Shown: positions 1 to 6,318 of the stretch, piece by piece
How the letters are laid out: every line of letters starts with the position of its first letter
Numbering within the stretch: position 1 is the stretch's first letter
Assembly: GCA_016180645.1 (NCBI GenBank)
Contig: JACPAV010000046.1
Location: 1 to 6,648 of the forward strand
Reading direction: 5' to 3'
Source of the DNA: Nitrospirota bacterium
GTDB lineage: Bacteria; JACPQY01
Length of the DNA stretch: 6,648 nucleotides
Translations under genes and position numbers: made by a program
The notes under the pieces: model-generated
Told to the model about the DNA's origin: nothing
Seen by the model: the letters and a program-made list of their open reading frames with translations, nothing else
Databases searched by the model: none

Positions 1-38
1 GGATGGGAAGGTATCTTCAGCCACCGCTCAAGCGATTC

Positions 39-97
39 GTAGGGGAGCATCTTCAGATGCTCCCTCTTGTCGGGAGGGTCTGAAGACCCTCCCCTAC
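39..97. repeat. REPIN-like inverted pair, copy 1
   Basis: GTAG (39-42) is followed by a perfect 10-bp stem GGGAGCATCT / AGATGCTCCC (43-52 with 55-64, loop TC). A 7-base spacer TCTTGTC follows. Then comes a second perfect stem GGGAGGGTCT / AGACCCTCCC (72-81 with 84-93, loop GA) and CTAC (94-97), the reverse complement of GTAG. The second palindrome read on the minus strand matches the first except for three arm positions and their partners (CAT/ATG against GGT/ACC). This layout, two head-to-head palindromes each led by GTAG, is known for REP sequences mobilised by REP-associated tyrosine transposases (RAYTs). The assignment to that class is by architecture only, since no RAYT gene lies in the window. 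Confidence 0.75.
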
Positions 98-170
98 GCA
101 TAATGACCAACACAAACCTTTCAAAAAATGGCAAGAGTCGAGTTTAGAGCCTCTGACAGAATGCCGATTC

Positions 171-196
171 GTAGGGGAGCATTTTCAGATGCTCCC
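171..196 (+). repeat. Single REP-like palindrome, copy 2
   Basis: GTAG (171-174) is followed by the stem GGGAGCATTT / AGATGCTCCC (175-184 with 187-196, loop TC). It differs from copy 1 by one C-to-T change, leaving a T opposite G, which would still pair as a G-U wobble in RNA. The second, inverted palindrome is missing. After CTCTTGTC the sequence becomes CTTGCCTCC and then restarts as copy 3. It is therefore an unpaired REP-like element, probably left by an unequal recombination or deletion event inside the array. Confidence 0.7.
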
Positions 197-214
197 TCTT
201 GTCCTTGCCTCCTC

Positions 215-273
215 GTAGGGGAGCACCTTCAGGTGCTCCCTCTTGTCGGGAGGGTCTGAAGACCCTCCCCTAC
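215..273. repeat. REPIN-like inverted pair, copy 3
   Basis: Same build as copy 1: GTAG (215-218), stem GGGAGCACCT / AGGTGCTCCC (219-228 with 231-240), spacer TCTTGTC, stem GGGAGGGTCT / AGACCCTCCC (248-257 with 260-269), then CTAC (270-273). In the first stem a T-A pair of copy 1 has become C-G, both partners changing together. The second stem is identical to copy 1. Confidence 0.75.
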
Positions 274-346
274 GCATCATGACCAACACAAACCTTTCAA
301 AGAATGGCAAAAGTCGAGCTTAGAGCCTCTGACAGAATGCCGATTC

Positions 347-405
347 GTAGGGGAGCACCTTCAGGTGCTCCCTCTTGTCGGGAGGGTCTGAAGACCCTCC
401 CCTAC
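347..405. repeat. REPIN-like inverted pair, copy 4
   Basis: GTAG (347-350), stem GGGAGCACCT / AGGTGCTCCC (351-360 with 363-372), spacer TCTTGTC, stem GGGAGGGTCT / AGACCCTCCC (380-389 with 392-401), then CTAC (402-405). It is identical to copy 3 over this span. It is the copy nearest to the 3' end of the FkbM gene, 58 bp from its stop codon, and may form strong hairpins in any read-through transcript of that gene. Confidence 0.75.
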
Positions 406-463
406 GCATCATGACCAACGTAAACCTTTCGAAGAATGGCAAAAGTCGAGCTGAGGTATCCCG

Positions 464-1342
464 TCAGGATCGCGTGCAGAAGAGATTCACCTTCCACGAT
501 GGGTCTGACCGGCGAAGCATGTCCGAGCTGAGCGGCCCGAGAGAGCGCGACTCGTCATTGATGGCTTGAATCGAGAAGCCCAGTTCGCGGATTTGCCGCA
601 CGAACGCGTCCGGTGGAGTGCCGCCGCTTCGCAGCAACACGGGAGCAAGCTCCAACAAGAGGACCAAGTCGCGATTCCGGCTCAATGTTTTTTTCATTCC
701 CTTGAGCGCGTACGGTTCATGGCCTTCGATGTCCATCTTGATGACATCAACCTTTTCGGAACCGATCTCGTCGTCCAGGGCGACGCATTCGACCTTAAGT
801 TCTCCCTTCGTTCGGATGTCAGGGTGCGGATACAACCCGTGTGAGTGCGAGCCCTCGGAAAGCAGGATGGATGCCGTGCCCGACTCCTCTCCCACGGCTT
901 TGGGCACAATCGTTACGATTCCACCGCACTCATGCAGGTCGATGTTGCGCCGCAGGACCGTGAGATTGGTGGGGACCGGCTCGAAGGCAAGCACTCTTCC
1001 CTCCGCACCCGTCTTCCGGGCCGCGAGGACCGAGAAGTAACCGAACTGAGCGCCGACATCAACCACCCGGGCGCCGCGCCGGACGCTCTCCGTGAAAAGC
1101 TGCGCGGTGAACGGCTCGTACGGTTTCGAATGATAGGCGTCGAAGTCGGCCGTGTCCGCGTAGACGTACAGGGGAACTTCGCCCACGCGGGTGAGAATGA
1201 GGCTGTCGCGCGCCAGGAGCCGCAAGAGGACCGATCGACCCCTCCGTTTGAGAATCCGCACGATTCTTGAGCGTCCCAACAGCGTCTTGTTCAAAGAGAG
1301 GTTCAGCGCCTTGGCGGACTGGAGAATGCGCCCTCTGACCAT
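464..1342 (-). CDS. FkbM-family SAM-dependent methyltransferase
   Basis: Predicted 292-residue cytoplasmic methyltransferase using S-adenosylmethionine, probably an O-methyltransferase. The Rossmann motif I is VVDVGAQFGYFSVLAA (about residues 93-108). The acidic strand-2 motif is VLAFEPVPTNL (117-127), and the family hallmark VDVIKMDIEGHE is at 198-209. Together these are the FkbM pattern. The basic N-terminus (about residues 1-45) shows no signal peptide or clear membrane segment. The ATG at 1342 is preferred: the frame stays open to 1552, but that extension is low-complexity, Arg/Pro-rich, and runs antisense over the neighbouring gene. No Shine-Dalgarno lies before this ATG, but a promoter-like pair sits just upstream. 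The gene is divergent from the GT-C/methyltransferase genes and its stop is 11 bp from the REP array. FkbM enzymes methylate varied substrates, often glycans or secondary metabolites. The neighbours favour a glycan, but the substrate is not identifiable. Confidence 0.88.
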   Translation of the reverse strand: MVRGRILQSAKALNLSLNKTLLGRSRIVRILKRRGRSVLLRLLARDSLILTRVGEVPLYVYADTADFDAYHSKPYEPFTAQLFTESVRRGARVVDVGAQFGYFSVLAARKTGAEGRVLAFEPVPTNLTVLRRNIDLHECGGIVTIVPKAVGEESGTASILLSEGSHSHGLYPHPDIRTKGELKVECVALDDEIGSEKVDVIKMDIEGHEPYALKGMKKTLSRNRDLVLLLELAPVLLRSGGTPPDAFVRQIRELGFSIQAINDESRSLGPLSSDMLRRSDPSWKVNLFCTRS

Positions 1343-1348
1343 TCGCGC

Positions 1349-1377
1349 AAGATAGCCTACCGAACGACGGGGTTCAA
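1349..1377 (-). promoter_or_regulatory. Candidate sigma70-like promoter of the FkbM gene, possibly leaderless
   Basis: On the minus strand, TTGAAC (1377-1372, four of six matches to TTGACA) and TATCTT (1354-1349, four of six to TATAAT) are separated by exactly 17 bp. The -10-like box ends six bases before the ATG at 1342, so transcription would start at or within a base or two of the start codon. That fits the lack of a ribosome binding site. Both hexamers are imperfect, so this is an inference from spacing and position. Confidence 0.4.
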
Positions 1378-1385
1378 CAGTCCCC

Positions 1386-1390
1386 GGAGG
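1386..1390 (+). promoter_or_regulatory. Shine-Dalgarno GGAGG deciding the start of the PA14/GT-C gene
   Basis: GGAGG lies five bases before the GTG at 1396, an ideal spacing. It overlaps too closely to serve the GTG at 1390. It also forms the 3' edge of a small potential hairpin, CGGGG (1368-1372) with CCCCG (1382-1386), whose last base is the first base of the GGAGG. Confidence 0.5.
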
Positions 1391-1395
1391 TGGAC

Positions 1396-3579
1396 GTGGA
1401 ATATCGGACTTGCTACAAGGTCCCGATGCGGTCGCTTCGGAACGTGATGGCCCCGGGTAGTGTCGAGAGCCCGGCAGGCGGCAGAGGCCTCGGTTCTTCC
1501 ACGGCGACGAGGGCCGGAGCCGTCGATGGGCTCGTCCAACTGCTGGCCGCACTCGTTCTCACCTGGCCCCTCGCGCCTCACCTCTTCGATCGCCTTGGAG
1601 GGAACGCTGGTGATCCCCTGCAAACGCTCTGGTCTTGGTGGTGGCTGCACGATGCCATCATGTCGTTGAAGAATCCCTTCTTTTCGGACCACGTGTACCA
1701 TCCCCAGGGGGCGACGCTGATCTTCCAAACATTCGACCTCCCAAGCGCGGCGATCGCCTTCCCGTTTTGGGGGGTGCTGCCTCCTGTAGCGATTTACAAC
1801 GTCGCGGTTCTCTTTGCGTTCATTCTGACCGGGTATGGGATGGTGCGGCTGCTCCGCGAGCTTGGAGTGGACCGGTTCACCGCGCATGGCATGGCGATCC
1901 TTTTCTCCGCCACGCCCTACCACATGGCGCACGCCATGGGCCACCAACAGCTGGTCAACATGGGCTGGATCCCGCTCTTCCTCGTGCGCGCGCACCGGCT
2001 GCTCGCAGGGCGCGGGACGCTTCGCGACGGCGTGTGGGGCGGATTCCACCTGGCTCTGGCCACCCTGGCAAGCTGGTACCACCTCCTGTTCGTCATGGTG
2101 TTGATCCCCTTTCTCGCTCTCCACGCACTGATCGCCCATCGCCGTACGGTGGCGACCGGACGTCTTTGGGGACGGCTCGTGTCGCTCGGGGTCATCTTCC
2201 TCGCGTTGGCGGGTCCGCTCCTGCGGGCGGTGATGATCGAGCGGAACAAGGAGCCCGTTGAGGGCGCCCACGATTCGGCCGAATACTCCGCCGATCTGGA
2301 GGCTTTCTTCATCCCGAATGAAATCCAAGCGTGGTCCCGATGGACAGGGGCGAAGGCGCGGCAATGGACGGGGAACAAGGCGGAAACCGCTGTGTACACA
2401 GGGTACGTTGTCCTGACCGGCGCAATCGCCGGGATCGTCCTCGGGGGGGGGGCAGCGCGGGTCTATGGCTTGGCGGGTCTTGCGGCGGCCGTCCTCTCAA
2501 TGGGTCCCTACCTGCAAATCGGCGGCGAGATCCACCGCGACGTTCGAATGCCCTACCTGATGCTGGAACGGCTCCTGCCTCCCATTCAGTTCATGGGCGT
2601 TCCCTCCCGGCTCGGGTACGTCATGTACCTGGGGCTCCTCGTCTCCATGGGCCTCGGCTTGACCCGGCTGTGGGAGAAGCGGATCCGATCCGGCCAAAAT
2701 CGGAAAGCGTTCGTTTTGGGCATCGGCGTGTTCTCTGTGGTGCTCCTCGAATACGCCCCGCGGCAGATTCGGACCACCCGTCTCCAGGTCCCGGCGCCAA
2801 TGCGGGAATGGGCCCAGGATACGGATTCATACGCCGTGTTGGACCTATCCGACCCTTACTTGATGTTGTGGCATGCCATGCATCACCGCAAACCCATCGT
2901 CGGAGGCAATCTCTCGCGAACGCCCGAGCGATTGAGCGGCTGGTACAACGCCCTGGAGATGGTTCAGGCCACCGACCATCCGACGCCGAGGCCCGCGCCG
3001 ATCTTCACGCGCATCGATCCGGACGTTTCCTTCGATTGGGGCGACGGTTCGCCGGACCCGCGGTTGGAGCCGGATGGGTTCCGCATCGAGTGGTCGGGCT
3101 ACCTCAAAGTACCCGCCGGCGGAAACTGGATCTTTCACGTGGCCTCCGACGACAGCGCCTCGCTTTGGATCGACGAGAAACTCATCGTGGAGATCCCCGG
3201 TGTTCACCCCTTGGAATGGAAGTCCGGTCGGGTGCGCCTCGAAAAAGGGCGTCACCCGATCCGCCTCAACTACGAGGAAGGCACGGGCAAGGCCGGCGTG
3301 ATTCTCCAGTGGGAATGGCCGGGCATCGGCCGACTGGACATTCCGGCTGAAGCCTTGACCACCGATGATGGCAAGCCCGGCCTCGAAGGCACCTACTCCA
3401 AGTTCGTGGCAGGATGCGGCAGGGATCCCCAAGGCATCCTCCGGCAATTGAGAGACTTGCAGGTCCGATATGTCGTGACCCGCGATGGCGGCGACGACAC
3501 CTGCGTTGCGACGGACCTCGGAATGGAGAAGACCTACGAAGGAGAAGGAGTCCGCATCCACCGCGTCGGCTCGCCTTGA
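1396..3579 (+). CDS. Multi-pass GT-C-like membrane protein with embedded PA14 domain
   Basis: About 727 residues. Residues 45 to 452 hold roughly ten hydrophobic segments (for example 45-61, 129-150, 214-245, 260-280, 332-373, 406-424, 437-452). The first loop contains GDPLQTLWSWWW and then NPFFSDHVYHPQGATL, a pattern of large GT-C-type membrane glycosyltransferases. A non-membrane C-terminal part follows: YAVLDLSDP and HHRKPIVGGNLSR (about 479-508), then a PA14 domain (about 535-653) with RIDPDVSFDWGDGSPDP, WSGYL, SDDSASLWIDEKLIVEI and IPAEAL. The end, LRDLQVRYVVTRDG (about 684-698), is again typical of the membrane-protein family. PA14 domains are beta-barrels that often bind carbohydrate, and it probably lies outside the membrane. 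GTG 1396 is chosen for its GGAGG; GTG 1390, ATG 1426 or ATG 1447 are alternatives. It probably handles a lipid-linked sugar, but catalysis is unproven and the acceptor unknown. Confidence 0.85.
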   Translation: MEYRTCYKVPMRSLRNVMAPGSVESPAGGRGLGSSTATRAGAVDGLVQLLAALVLTWPLAPHLFDRLGGNAGDPLQTLWSWWWLHDAIMSLKNPFFSDHVYHPQGATLIFQTFDLPSAAIAFPFWGVLPPVAIYNVAVLFAFILTGYGMVRLLRELGVDRFTAHGMAILFSATPYHMAHAMGHQQLVNMGWIPLFLVRAHRLLAGRGTLRDGVWGGFHLALATLASWYHLLFVMVLIPFLALHALIAHRRTVATGRLWGRLVSLGVIFLALAGPLLRAVMIERNKEPVEGAHDSAEYSADLEAFFIPNEIQAWSRWTGAKARQWTGNKAETAVYTGYVVLTGAIAGIVLGGGAARVYGLAGLAAAVLSMGPYLQIGGEIHRDVRMPYLMLERLLPPIQFMGVPSRLGYVMYLGLLVSMGLGLTRLWEKRIRSGQNRKAFVLGIGVFSVVLLEYAPRQIRTTRLQVPAPMREWAQDTDSYAVLDLSDPYLMLWHAMHHRKPIVGGNLSRTPERLSGWYNALEMVQATDHPTPRPAPIFTRIDPDVSFDWGDGSPDPRLEPDGFRIEWSGYLKVPAGGNWIFHVASDDSASLWIDEKLIVEIPGVHPLEWKSGRVRLEKGRHPIRLNYEEGTGKAGVILQWEWPGIGRLDIPAEALTTDDGKPGLEGTYSKFVAGCGRDPQGILRQLRDLQVRYVVTRDGGDDTCVATDLGMEKTYEGEGVRIHRVGSP
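2443..2452 (+). repeat. Run of ten G inside the PA14/GT-C gene
   Basis: Ten consecutive G encode Gly-Gly-Gly plus the first base of an Ala codon, at about residues 350-353 in a membrane segment (IVLGGGAARV). As written the tract is in frame, since the PA14 domain downstream is intact. Homopolymer G tracts of this length are slippage-prone in replication and in sequencing. One extra G would shift reading into a frame that stays open until a stop at 3348-3350, which would destroy the PA14 domain. Confidence 0.95.
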
Positions 3580-3605
3580 ACCGTGAAAGCCCATGCGCCG
3601 GCTGT

Positions 3606-3634
3606 TTGTAAGCACCGGGAAGGTGGAGTAGATT
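3606..3634 (+). promoter_or_regulatory. Weak candidate promoter before the methyltransferase-GT pair
   Basis: TTGTAA (3606-3611) and TAGATT (3629-3634) are 17 bp apart, each with four of six consensus matches, in the 83-bp gap after the PA14/GT-C gene. It would give a leader of about 20 bases before the ATG at 3663. Such matches occur by chance, so read-through from the upstream gene is an equal alternative. Confidence 0.22.
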
Positions 3635-3662
3635 TCCCGACAAGAACGAGCCGCCACTCCTC

Positions 3663-4334
3663 ATGGACGCCACCAAACAAATCCGTGATTTTTTCGAGGA
3701 GGTCTCGCCCGATTTCGCTGGAAGTATCCACCCGTATGCCGCGCGAAGGCGGGGTGAGGCGCTCAGCCTTCATGCGAAGGGAGACATCCTGGAAGTCGGC
3801 TGCGGATCGGGGGCTGTCACCACCCACCTCGCTCGCAAAGGGAGGGTCGTGGCGGGCGATGTGGCACACGGCATGGTTCGGCAGACGTGCGCGTCGCTCC
3901 GCGTTCCCGGCGTGGTCTTCGACGGGTGCGCCTTTCCCTTCCGCGACCATTCCTTCGATACAGTGGCCTGCGCCGAGGCGATCTACTATCTGAACCGGCC
4001 TCTGGATCTCATACGGGAAGCCCATAGGATTCTGCGGCCCGGCGGCCTCCTGGCCCTGACGTGTATGGTCGGGTTCTGGCAGCGGGTGGATCGAACAAGA
4101 ATCCGTCTTGGGCGCCTTGGCCTGTGGATTGGGTCGGAGGTCCCTCCGCTTCCAAACATCCTGCCGCAGCATGAGGTGAAGAGGGGAATAGTGGAACTTG
4201 GTTTTGCACTCCAAGAAAGTCGGCCGATGATCCTGTTTCCTTCCGATCGTCTCGACGGCCTTAACCGGTGGTTGGAGAGGACTCCGCTCGGCCGAGGTGC
4301 TATTTTCTGGGTATTGACCGGTGAGAAAAGATAG
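3663..4334 (+). CDS. Class I SAM-dependent methyltransferase (Methyltransf_11 type)
   Basis: A 223-residue soluble protein. Motif I is ILEVGCGSGAVTTHLA (about residues 42-57), the SAM-binding glycine loop. The acidic residue after strand 2 is in VVAGDVAHGM (62-71), motif II/III is FPFRDHSFDTVACAEAIYYL (91-110), and HRILRPGGLLALT (121-133) is the post-motif III typical of UbiE/Methyltransf_11 enzymes. It has no signal peptide or membrane segment, so it should act in the cytoplasm. The ATG at 3663 has only a weak ribosome-binding context, but the N-terminus (IRDFFEEVSPDFAG) looks like a normal family start. It lies 83 bp after the PA14/GT-C gene and overlaps the next glycosyltransferase by 14 bp, so the two are probably translated together. 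The substrate is unknown; a sugar, a lipid carrier or a quinone-like compound are all possible, and the context favours a glycan or lipid intermediate. Confidence 0.88.
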   Translation: MDATKQIRDFFEEVSPDFAGSIHPYAARRRGEALSLHAKGDILEVGCGSGAVTTHLARKGRVVAGDVAHGMVRQTCASLRVPGVVFDGCAFPFRDHSFDTVACAEAIYYLNRPLDLIREAHRILRPGGLLALTCMVGFWQRVDRTRIRLGRLGLWIGSEVPPLPNILPQHEVKRGIVELGFALQESRPMILFPSDRLDGLNRWLERTPLGRGAIFWVLTGEKR

Positions 4335-6318
4335 GGCTTCCTCCATCCGTTTTCTGGCTCTTGCGTGGCTTGGCCTCGTGATCGCCGCGGGGAGCATCTG
4401 GATCGTGCTGGACAATTCGGGACCCGCGGCATGGGATCAGAGTCGCCACGCTCGCAACGCCCTGGCCATGCTCGACATCCTCCGCGATGCGGGAGGCCGG
4501 CATTCGCTATTCGACTTCCTTTACTACTACGATTTCTACCCGCCCCTGAGCTACCTCCCAACGGTTCTCTTTCACCTGATTTTCGGACGGGAATACGACG
4601 TTGCGTGCTTCTCCACTCTTCTGTTCTGGATACCGCTTCTATTCCTATCAACCGTTGCCGTCGGACGCCGGCTCATGGGCGCTCGCGCGGGCTGGCTGGC
4701 GGGATCCGCGATCCTTTGCCTTCCCAGCGTCGTAGCCCTGTCAAAAGACTACCTCACCGACCTCCAGACCGGTGCAATGACTTCGGTGGCGATGTGGGGG
4801 CTATTGCGGTCGAATCTTCTGTTGACCCCCCGCAGATCTCGTGTGGTGCAAGCCGGATTGATCCTTGGGGCCTGCATGTTGACGAAGTGGTCCATGCCCG
4901 CCTTCCTGGCCGGCCCCGTCCTGATCGCTTCGATCCGAGGGCTGAGAAGACAGCCTGCCCGATTCATCGGGAATGCAATGCTGGCCGGCGGGATCGCGGC
5001 CTTGATGGTCTTACCTTGGTATTTTCCGAATCGGCGCGACATCGTCCGCGCTCTCTTCTTCTCCGTGGAATACGGCGGGGATTTGGGCTACCCGGACCCT
5101 CTCTCACTGTCATCGTTCCTGTGGTATGCCCGCGCTCTTGTGGAATCGCACCTCACCCTGCCGGTCGTCATCCTGTTTGCCGGCGGCATGGCGGTTCTTG
5201 CGAAGCGGCGGAAGCCGGTTCTTGTGCTCTTGCTGCTGAGCCTGAGCCTGTCGTGGCTCGTGCTCACGGTCATGCGAAACAAGGAAGCACGATTTGCGAT
5301 GGCTTTCCTTCCCTACGTCTGCTGGGTGATCGCGGGCACCCTGTCGCGACCAAAGCAGAGGACTGGAGTCTGGGTCGCCGGAGTTCTGGCTGCTGTGGGT
5401 GTTTTTTCTCTTTCGGGAGTCCTGTTTCGCCTGCCGGTCCTCCCCGAGCGGGTAGGCGGTGGATTCTACACACTGCTGAATCAGGAGCCGTACTGGTGGT
5501 CACAACCTCCAGCGGCCGTTGCGCCTGACCCCGCGAAAGAGGCCGAGCAACTGTTTCGAAGTCTCTGGACATGCCTGCGGCCAAGGGAACATCCCCAAGC
5601 AGGGGTAGTGGATGTACGGCTTGATCACACGAGAATCGATCCCTACAGGATCGACTACTACGCCGTTCTCAACCATAGGGCGGTAAGGGTTCTGATCGGA
5701 CCGGATGCCCCCTTCTTGGACAGCAGGGGCTGGCCGCCGGCGGGCCCGGGGGGTGCGGAATTTGTGATCGTCCCCGGGCGCGATACTGAGGTTGAGGATT
5801 ATCAGCCTTTGGCTCTACTCCATAATCCAGGAGGGATCCTCGGTGGGGATGTGAAGTTGATGAATTCAACTCAGGTGTTAGGGGACTCGAAATCGCCGCG
5901 CGTCGCGGCCTTGTTTGCCGATCCTGAATACAATAATGCCGCGTGCCTCCTCTCTTCCCGAATTATTGAGACCGCCGTGTCAATGGGCGGGCGTTCGGGC
6001 CTCCAATTGGAGTGGATGGTCGGCTCCCGTGGGGTGGGACACCGCTTTGAGTATGTGCGCCAAGTTCAGGCCAATGGCCCGTCGCCCTTTCGCCTTGAAT
6101 GGATCGGCCCCTCGACATGGGCGACCGGCGAGCGCAAGACGGAAACGGTCCAACTTCAACTACCCGATTCCATCACGCCCGGAGACTACGATCTGGTGCT
6201 ATCCCTGCTTAGACGACCCAAGAGACACGACGAGAAACCGCTCCCAACCCGCTTGGTCGTGATCGGTAAGTTGGCGGAGAGTTCAGCCGTCCCCCTGGGT
6301 CGGATCCGAATCCGATAG
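4321..6318 (+). CDS. GT39/ArnT-like GT-C membrane glycosyltransferase
   Basis: A 665-residue integral membrane protein of the PMT/ArnT-like GT-C fold, expected to move sugar from a polyprenyl-phosphate donor. The first membrane helix is about residues 9-30. The following loop has WDQSRHARNAL (38-48), where Asp39 sits at the usual position of the catalytic Asp of the family. YPPLSYLP (73-80) matches the conserved loop-1 motif. Further helices lie near 95-115, 122-140, 150-165, 176-205, 217-233, 278-294, 299-317, 325-340 and 348-368. The MRNKEARFAMAFLP motif (318-331) resembles the conserved Asn-Lys-Glu-x-Arg-Phe segment of these proteins. Residues after about 375 are not membrane-spanning and end in a probable beta-rich domain (about 555-650, VQLQLPDSITPGDYDLVLSLL). 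The start is fixed: GTG 4321 is preceded in frame by TGA at 4315-4317. It has no Shine-Dalgarno and overlaps the preceding methyltransferase by 14 bp, which suggests translational coupling. Confidence 0.88.
   Translation: MRKDRASSIRFLALAWLGLVIAAGSIWIVLDNSGPAAWDQSRHARNALAMLDILRDAGGRHSLFDFLYYYDFYPPLSYLPTVLFHLIFGREYDVACFSTLLFWIPLLFLSTVAVGRRLMGARAGWLAGSAILCLPSVVALSKDYLTDLQTGAMTSVAMWGLLRSNLLLTPRRSRVVQAGLILGACMLTKWSMPAFLAGPVLIASIRGLRRQPARFIGNAMLAGGIAALMVLPWYFPNRRDIVRALFFSVEYGGDLGYPDPLSLSSFLWYARALVESHLTLPVVILFAGGMAVLAKRRKPVLVLLLLSLSLSWLVLTVMRNKEARFAMAFLPYVCWVIAGTLSRPKQRTGVWVAGVLAAVGVFSLSGVLFRLPVLPERVGGGFYTLLNQEPYWWSQPPAAVAPDPAKEAEQLFRSLWTCLRPREHPQAGVVDVRLDHTRIDPYRIDYYAVLNHRAVRVLIGPDAPFLDSRGWPPAGPGGAEFVIVPGRDTEVEDYQPLALLHNPGGILGGDVKLMNSTQVLGDSKSPRVAALFADPEYNNAACLLSSRIIETAVSMGGRSGLQLEWMVGSRGVGHRFEYVRQVQANGPSPFRLEWIGPSTWATGERKTETVQLQLPDSITPGDYDLVLSLLRRPKRHDEKPLPTRLVVIGKLAESSAVPLGRIRIR

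Follow-up and report, generated by a model that had tools for sequence, protein, structure and literature searches.

A tandem array of GTAG-led palindromes, very probably REPINs served by a single RAYT gene, and the carriage of many REPINs in MITE-like elements

The array of short palindromes near the start of the window (the whole stretch of DNA that was analysed, 6,648 bp, which is all of contig C46 in a host draft genome of 4.72 Mb in 65 contigs) is very probably a tandem of REPINs, here opposed pairs of GTAG-led palindromes from the REP superfamily, belonging to a system in which the RAYT (a Y1 tyrosine transposase of HUH type) is encoded once, on contig C5, and many of the REPINs are carried within MITE-like elements. 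The RAYT-REPIN system itself is known; what is new is that REPINs are embedded in MITE-like elements. The literature was searched for REPs inside MITEs that have target duplications, with no relevant result. REPIN/RAYT biology is known mainly from Proteobacteria, and here the same system is found in a poorly sampled lineage.

Seven 26-bp palindromes lie at 39-405 of the window, four forward and three reverse, each consisting of GTAG, a 9-bp arm, a 4-nt loop and a second 9-bp arm (GTAG-GGGAG-NNN-C-TTCA-G-NNN-CTCCC). They form three head-to-head pairs, with the spacer TCTTGTC, and one lone forward copy. The GTAG-led head-to-head pairs described in an earlier note on this DNA are therefore real, and its statement that each full unit is an opposed pair holds for all three of them, but in the second unit (171-240) the inverted partner has been lost, and another forward palindrome comes 18 bp further on. 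The inner-arm triplets are those that the note had read (CAT/ATG at 39 and 171, CAC/GTG at 215 and 347, GGT/ACC in all inverted partners), and the centre that it had called fixed, CTTCAG, is constant except in the palindrome at 171, which has TTTCAG. Tandem alternation of opposite REPs, as in BIME-2, is thus present at 39-405, with one unit without its inverted partner. An Rfam search of the window gave no match.

From 98 to 451, three B right ends alternate with two A left ends, and a TTA joins each of the first two B right ends to the A left end that follows. The first A left end leads into the lone L palindrome and a REPIN, the second into a REPIN alone, and TGA follows the last B right end, so that there is one TNA trinucleotide at each boundary (Table 1; elements A and B, and the L and R palindrome types, are described below). 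The spacers of the array are explained by the embedding of REPINs in MITE-like elements, the ends of which constitute the spacers. The region thus remains a REPIN array, but its tandem character is due mainly to these REPIN-carrying elements, which the earlier note had missed. Window positions 1-38 are identical to the final bases of contig C4, which has a B terminal repeat at C4:245237; the first 41 bases of C46 are the last 41 of C4, on which the B left arm of REPIN 1 would begin, and a C4-C46 join inside a repeat is plausible from the overlap. The length of the array may be inexact because the draft assembly breaks at these repeats. Many contigs start or end inside these elements (e.g., C3:1, C13:1, C16:132187, C21:109787 and C24:136076), and the repeats therefore limit assembly.

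Table 1. Features of the palindrome array in the window.
Feature	Positions	Strand	Basis
Palindromes	39-64(+), 72-97(-), 171-196(+), 215-240(+), 248-273(-), 347-372(+), 380-405(-)		
Element-B left arm, end part (GGATGGGAAGG...CGATTC)	1..38	+	Last 41 bases of C4 equal first 41 of C46; arm also present in other B copies
REPIN 1: L palindrome 39-64 (CAT), spacer TCTTGTC, R palindrome 72-97 (GGT)	39..97	+	
Element-B right end; terminal repeat CTCGACTCTTGCCATTTTT on - strand at 124-142	98..143	-	
TNA junction: TTA that joins the B right end to the A left end	144..146	.	Sequence; TNA context of A and B ends
Element-A left terminal repeat GAGCCTCTGACAGAATGC and CGATTC	147..170	+	
Lone L palindrome 171-196 (CAT arm, one C-to-T change) and 18-bp spacer; inverted partner missing	171..214	+	
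REPIN 2: L palindrome 215-240 (CAC), spacer, R palindrome 248-273 (GGT)	215..273	+	
Element-B right end	274..319	-	Terminal-repeat match C46:300-318
TTA trinucleotide (TNA junction)	320..322	.	Sequence; TNA context of A and B ends
Element-A left terminal repeat and CGATTC	323..346	+	Terminal-repeat match C46:322-340
REPIN 3: L palindrome 347-372 (CAC), spacer, R palindrome 380-405 (GGT)	347..405	+	
Element-B right end, outer end of array; then TGA-G (452-455)	406..451	-	Terminal-repeat match C46:432-450

The palindrome has 387 copies in the 4.7-Mb host genome at three or fewer mismatches, versus 8 for the reversed-pattern control. Within 1.43 Mb, 150 of 6,135 GTAG tetramers stand directly before a hairpin, versus 2-27 for eight control tetramers, some of which are commoner than GTAG. 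The 9-bp stems are perfect in 278 of the 303 listed copies, from a search that permitted at most one mismatch. According to our own simple codon-usage gene finder, applied to contigs C2-C6 (coding density 82-88%), 95 of 105 palindromes are located outside predicted genes, where convergent gaps are favoured (32 of 91 palindromes vs 92 of 465 gaps) and divergent gaps are under-used (16 of 91 palindromes vs 120 of 465 gaps). Copy number, intergenic bias and a cognate RAYT on C5 support the interpretation as REPINs and RAYT offered in the earlier note. It is highly improbable that the palindromes are instead functional RNA or DNA signals, such as terminators of convergent genes, and not mobile: their intergenic placement and enrichment in convergent gaps agree with such a function, as does the position of the window copy beside the 3' end of an FkbM-type methyltransferase gene (464-1552, - strand), but the GTAG head, conserved spacers, hundreds of near-identical copies, linkage to a RAYT and nesting in MITE-like elements would not be expected of terminators alone. 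A terminator role is possible as a by-product.

Seven genes of the host genome match the Pfam family Y1_Tnp, of which the sole gene near these palindromes (C5:35020-35499, - strand) encodes a protein of 159 aa. Twelve palindromes lie within about 800 bp of it, on both sides, mostly in complete REPINs, and these are bare REPINs without A ends. The protein matches NCBIfam NF047646 (REP-associated tyrosine transposase) with 100.4 bits (cut-off 80), and among PDB structures it matches E. coli TnpA-REP (4er8) best. An H-x-H motif (PDHLHLLL) and the segment YIWENPV, which should hold the catalytic tyrosine, are kept in this RAYT and in the two nearest RAYTs found, which belong to other phyla (a Desulfobacterales genome and a Stahlbacteria genome) and are flanked by inverted GTAGGGG hairpins of a sequence other than that of the host palindrome. 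Judged by sequence, the C5 gene and its flanking palindromes have the arrangement of a REPtron. The six other Y1 genes were ruled out as movers, none having these palindromes nearby.

When the search pattern specifies the outer arms and leaves the inner ones open, the inner triplets are complementary in 260 of 269 copies, where chance would give about 1/64. Among 38 distinct palindromes the covariation score is 0.406, with shuffles scoring 0.146 and slid pairings no higher than 0.08; the 97.7% of pairing cells that are paired in this set is an inflated figure, the 38 palindromes having been picked partly by pairing, and the unconstrained 260 of 269 is the fair one. Five of the nine pairs have changed on both sides, and nearly all of these changes concern the three inner-arm pairs or columns 8 and 23, which pair with each other. 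The compensatory change that the earlier note had seen in the window is thus strong genome-wide, but the arms in the window reflect inherited subfamilies. The CAC arm occurs in 13 sampled copies, and since this subfamily mostly shares one triplet arrangement (the remainder being derivatives of it), the CAC copies of the window are best read as inherited; that the two of them represent independent compensatory events was rejected, both being members of the 13-copy subfamily. Independent two-sided changes appear genome-wide only, where several would be needed to connect the arm types. Selection for pairing and hairpin-templated mutation or correction are both possible, each fitting the covariation data, and the fact that each REPIN has kept two arm types argues against strong conversion between paired palindromes.

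By inner arm, palindromes are classed as L (CAN: CAT, CAG, CAC and the like) or R (GNN: GGT, GGC, GAC, GAT), and 112 of 115 head-to-head pairs join an L to an R palindrome, with a spacer of mostly 7 or 5 bp. The complete pairs that were read in a related genome, G001, are likewise L plus R (just one comparison genome is from the same family, all others sharing the domain only). This heterotypy is a shared property, not a novelty, because Y and Z REPs are combined in the BIMEs of E. coli, whose RAYT gene is flanked by both types (PMC2817692). When folded as DNA, identical palindromes form one hairpin of -32.1 kcal/mol, and the window REPINs have a long form (-21.1 kcal/mol) and a two-hairpin form (-20.2 kcal/mol) that are close, which suggests that heterotypy may weaken the single long hairpin, so that two small hairpins can compete with it. 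Same-orientation R palindromes occur in tandem runs of up to five or six, with 14-20-bp spacing, at C13:88710-88950 and C16:96150-96350.

The 73-bp spacer between REPINs recurs elsewhere, with 47 matches among the candidates scored, and alignment of flanks revealed two larger elements, A and B, for which the named ends are GAGCCTCTAACAGAATGC and GCTCGACTTTTGCCATT. Element A (GAGCCTCTAACAGAATGC-CGATTC-REPIN-GCATTCTGTTAGAGGCTC) is non-coding, has 18-bp terminal inverted repeats as its ends and is typically 103 bp long in search coordinates; there are 51 complete copies in the sampled 2.37 Mb, and the REPIN inside is nearly always in the same position and orientation. Element B has GCTCGACTTTTGCCATTTTT ends; a complete REPIN-bearing copy is 185 bp long, and no REPIN was found inside copies of 179 bp. 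The terminal-repeat patterns occur 110 (A) and 61 (B) times, with no occurrence in reversed controls. On contigs C2-C6, read almost whole, 22 of 45 REPIN clusters adjoin A or B ends and 23 do not.

The target of element A is CTNAG with duplication of TNA: 16 of 51 copies have the same 3-mer on both flanks, versus 7.5 expected (permutation p=0.00025), as do 13 of 20 when only TNA/TNA pairs are considered (p=0.0036). The ends of B have the same CTNAG context. At C7:80745, the flanks of an A copy, when joined through a single TTA, give the sequence that another repeat has in its uninterrupted copies, a paralogous empty site; this was the one convincing paralogous site in a search with joined flanks, in which most matches were the loci themselves. 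It is very unlikely that the TNA match is due to symmetry of the target without duplication, the A ends having spread with REPINs through recombination of repeats. CTNAG is symmetric from both sides, which would place TNA at both ends, and 35 of 51 A elements are without an identical 3-bp duplication, for which decay or recombination is therefore needed if duplication occurred; but the middle base agrees at both ends above permutation in those 13 of 20 pairs, and the flanks are unique sequence in most copies. With its terminal inverted repeats, lack of coding sequence, length within 70-300 bp and target duplication, element A has the sequence characteristics of a MITE, and its insertion marks point to DDE-type transposition, unlike that of IS200/IS605, the enzymes of which do not make larger target duplications (PMC2817692).

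Another explanation, which is unlikely, dispenses with a second transposase: the RAYT would move the entire 103-bp element, the outer inverted repeats being an extended REPIN (cf. TIRtrons). RAYT genes with long flanking inverted repeats unrelated to GTAG are described (PMC3733652), the fixed place of the REPIN in nearly all A elements would fit, and the two DDE transposase families that were searched for, PF01609 and PF13586, are absent from the genome. Against it stand the 3-bp duplication within CTNAG and the empty site with one TTA, which an IS200/IS605 enzyme would not be expected to produce, as well as the bare REPINs that flank the RAYT gene itself, and element B, which has other ends with the same target and also exists in REPIN-free copies. 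No autonomous element with A ends was seen in the sampled 2.37 Mb. When longer elements that have CTNAG at their ends and inverted repeats that match were sought, the exact matches proved to lie within REPINs; two spans of 1.9 and 2.1 kb have separate A elements as their borders. Some CAG/GAC REPINs are surrounded by TGCGTCCGGAAA ends, but a further MITE-like family with these ends is not claimed, as its copies are few and do not clearly exceed the control (25 vs 16).

The preferred explanation, that of a RAYT-REPIN system with REPINs carried in MITE-like elements, can be extended to two modes of spread, RAYT/HUH transposition for bare REPINs and DDE transposition for MITEs with REPIN cargo that regenerate CTNAG and so build arrays by serial insertion; we consider this extension to have about an even chance of being correct. 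The RAYT would recognise single-stranded GTAG hairpins and copy REPINs to new sites, and only copies with intact hairpins would act as sources, so that the arms stay complementary. The MITE-like elements, with their DDE-type insertion marks, apparently amplified REPINs by a second route. Each insertion would leave CTNAG at both ends, so that elements could land end to end, and either end-to-end insertion or recombination between REPINs of different MITEs might yield tandem chimeras; those whose left end is that of A and whose right end is that of B may have arisen by recombination in the common REPIN core. The single-TNA boundaries could reflect insertion at a regenerated CTNAG or amplification of one composite. 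These considerations suggest that REPIN copy number need not mirror RAYT activity alone, and regenerated CTNAG together with recombination in the REPIN core offers a concrete possible route to BIME-2-like arrays.

The GTAG REPINs and REPtrons of Pseudomonas and Stenotrophomonas (PMC3116915, PMC2817692, PMC3733652) resemble the host's REPINs in their GTAG head, in short perfect palindromes arranged as head-to-head doublets, in the presence of hundreds of intergenic copies, in the single RAYT gene flanked by the same palindromes and in co-changing arms, but differ from them in palindrome sequence (here GTAGGGG... with a TTCA loop), in host lineage, in the strict two-type pairing found here and in the location here of about half of the clusters inside MITE-like elements. 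The E. coli BIME (Y and Z, with TnpA-REP/yafM) shares the two opposed palindrome types, the tandem arrays and the RAYT gene flanked by both (PMC2817692). The REPs of E. coli are long and require a stem bulge (PMC8266576); the host palindromes, with stems of 9 bp that are mostly perfect, do not have the long bulged stem of this type (group 2) and resemble the short perfect REPs of group 3. Bacterial MITEs are likewise non-coding elements of 103 to about 185 bp with terminal inverted repeats, a short target duplication and many copies; unlike them, the elements described here have a REPIN in fixed orientation as their interior, no autonomous partner that was found, and two families, A and B, with unrelated ends and a common CTNAG target and cargo.

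At C2:136690-136810 of the host genome (G000), an A-like element has a different GTAG palindrome family (GTAGCCGCGGGCTTCAGCCCGCG) replacing the usual REPIN, and a further repeated hairpin (GAGGCTAAGCCTCGATAG...CTATCGAGGCTTAGCCTC) is an insertion site of A elements (on C12, C16, C35, C3 and C40). Contig C68 of G001 (L229) resembles the host in its CAT/GGT REPINs and in having ends of types A and B, an exception in that genome, and may be a recent transfer or a mis-binned contig; in another G001 REPIN (L232), CAT is paired with a different partner (GTAGGGGCGGGTCC...). The rest of the window encodes the FkbM-family methyltransferase, a large protein (1390-3579, + strand) that carries a PA14 domain at its C-terminus, a class-I methyltransferase (3663-4334, + strand) and a 665-aa protein without a Pfam match (4321-6318, + strand), and the genes at 464-6318 are perhaps a surface-glycan cluster.
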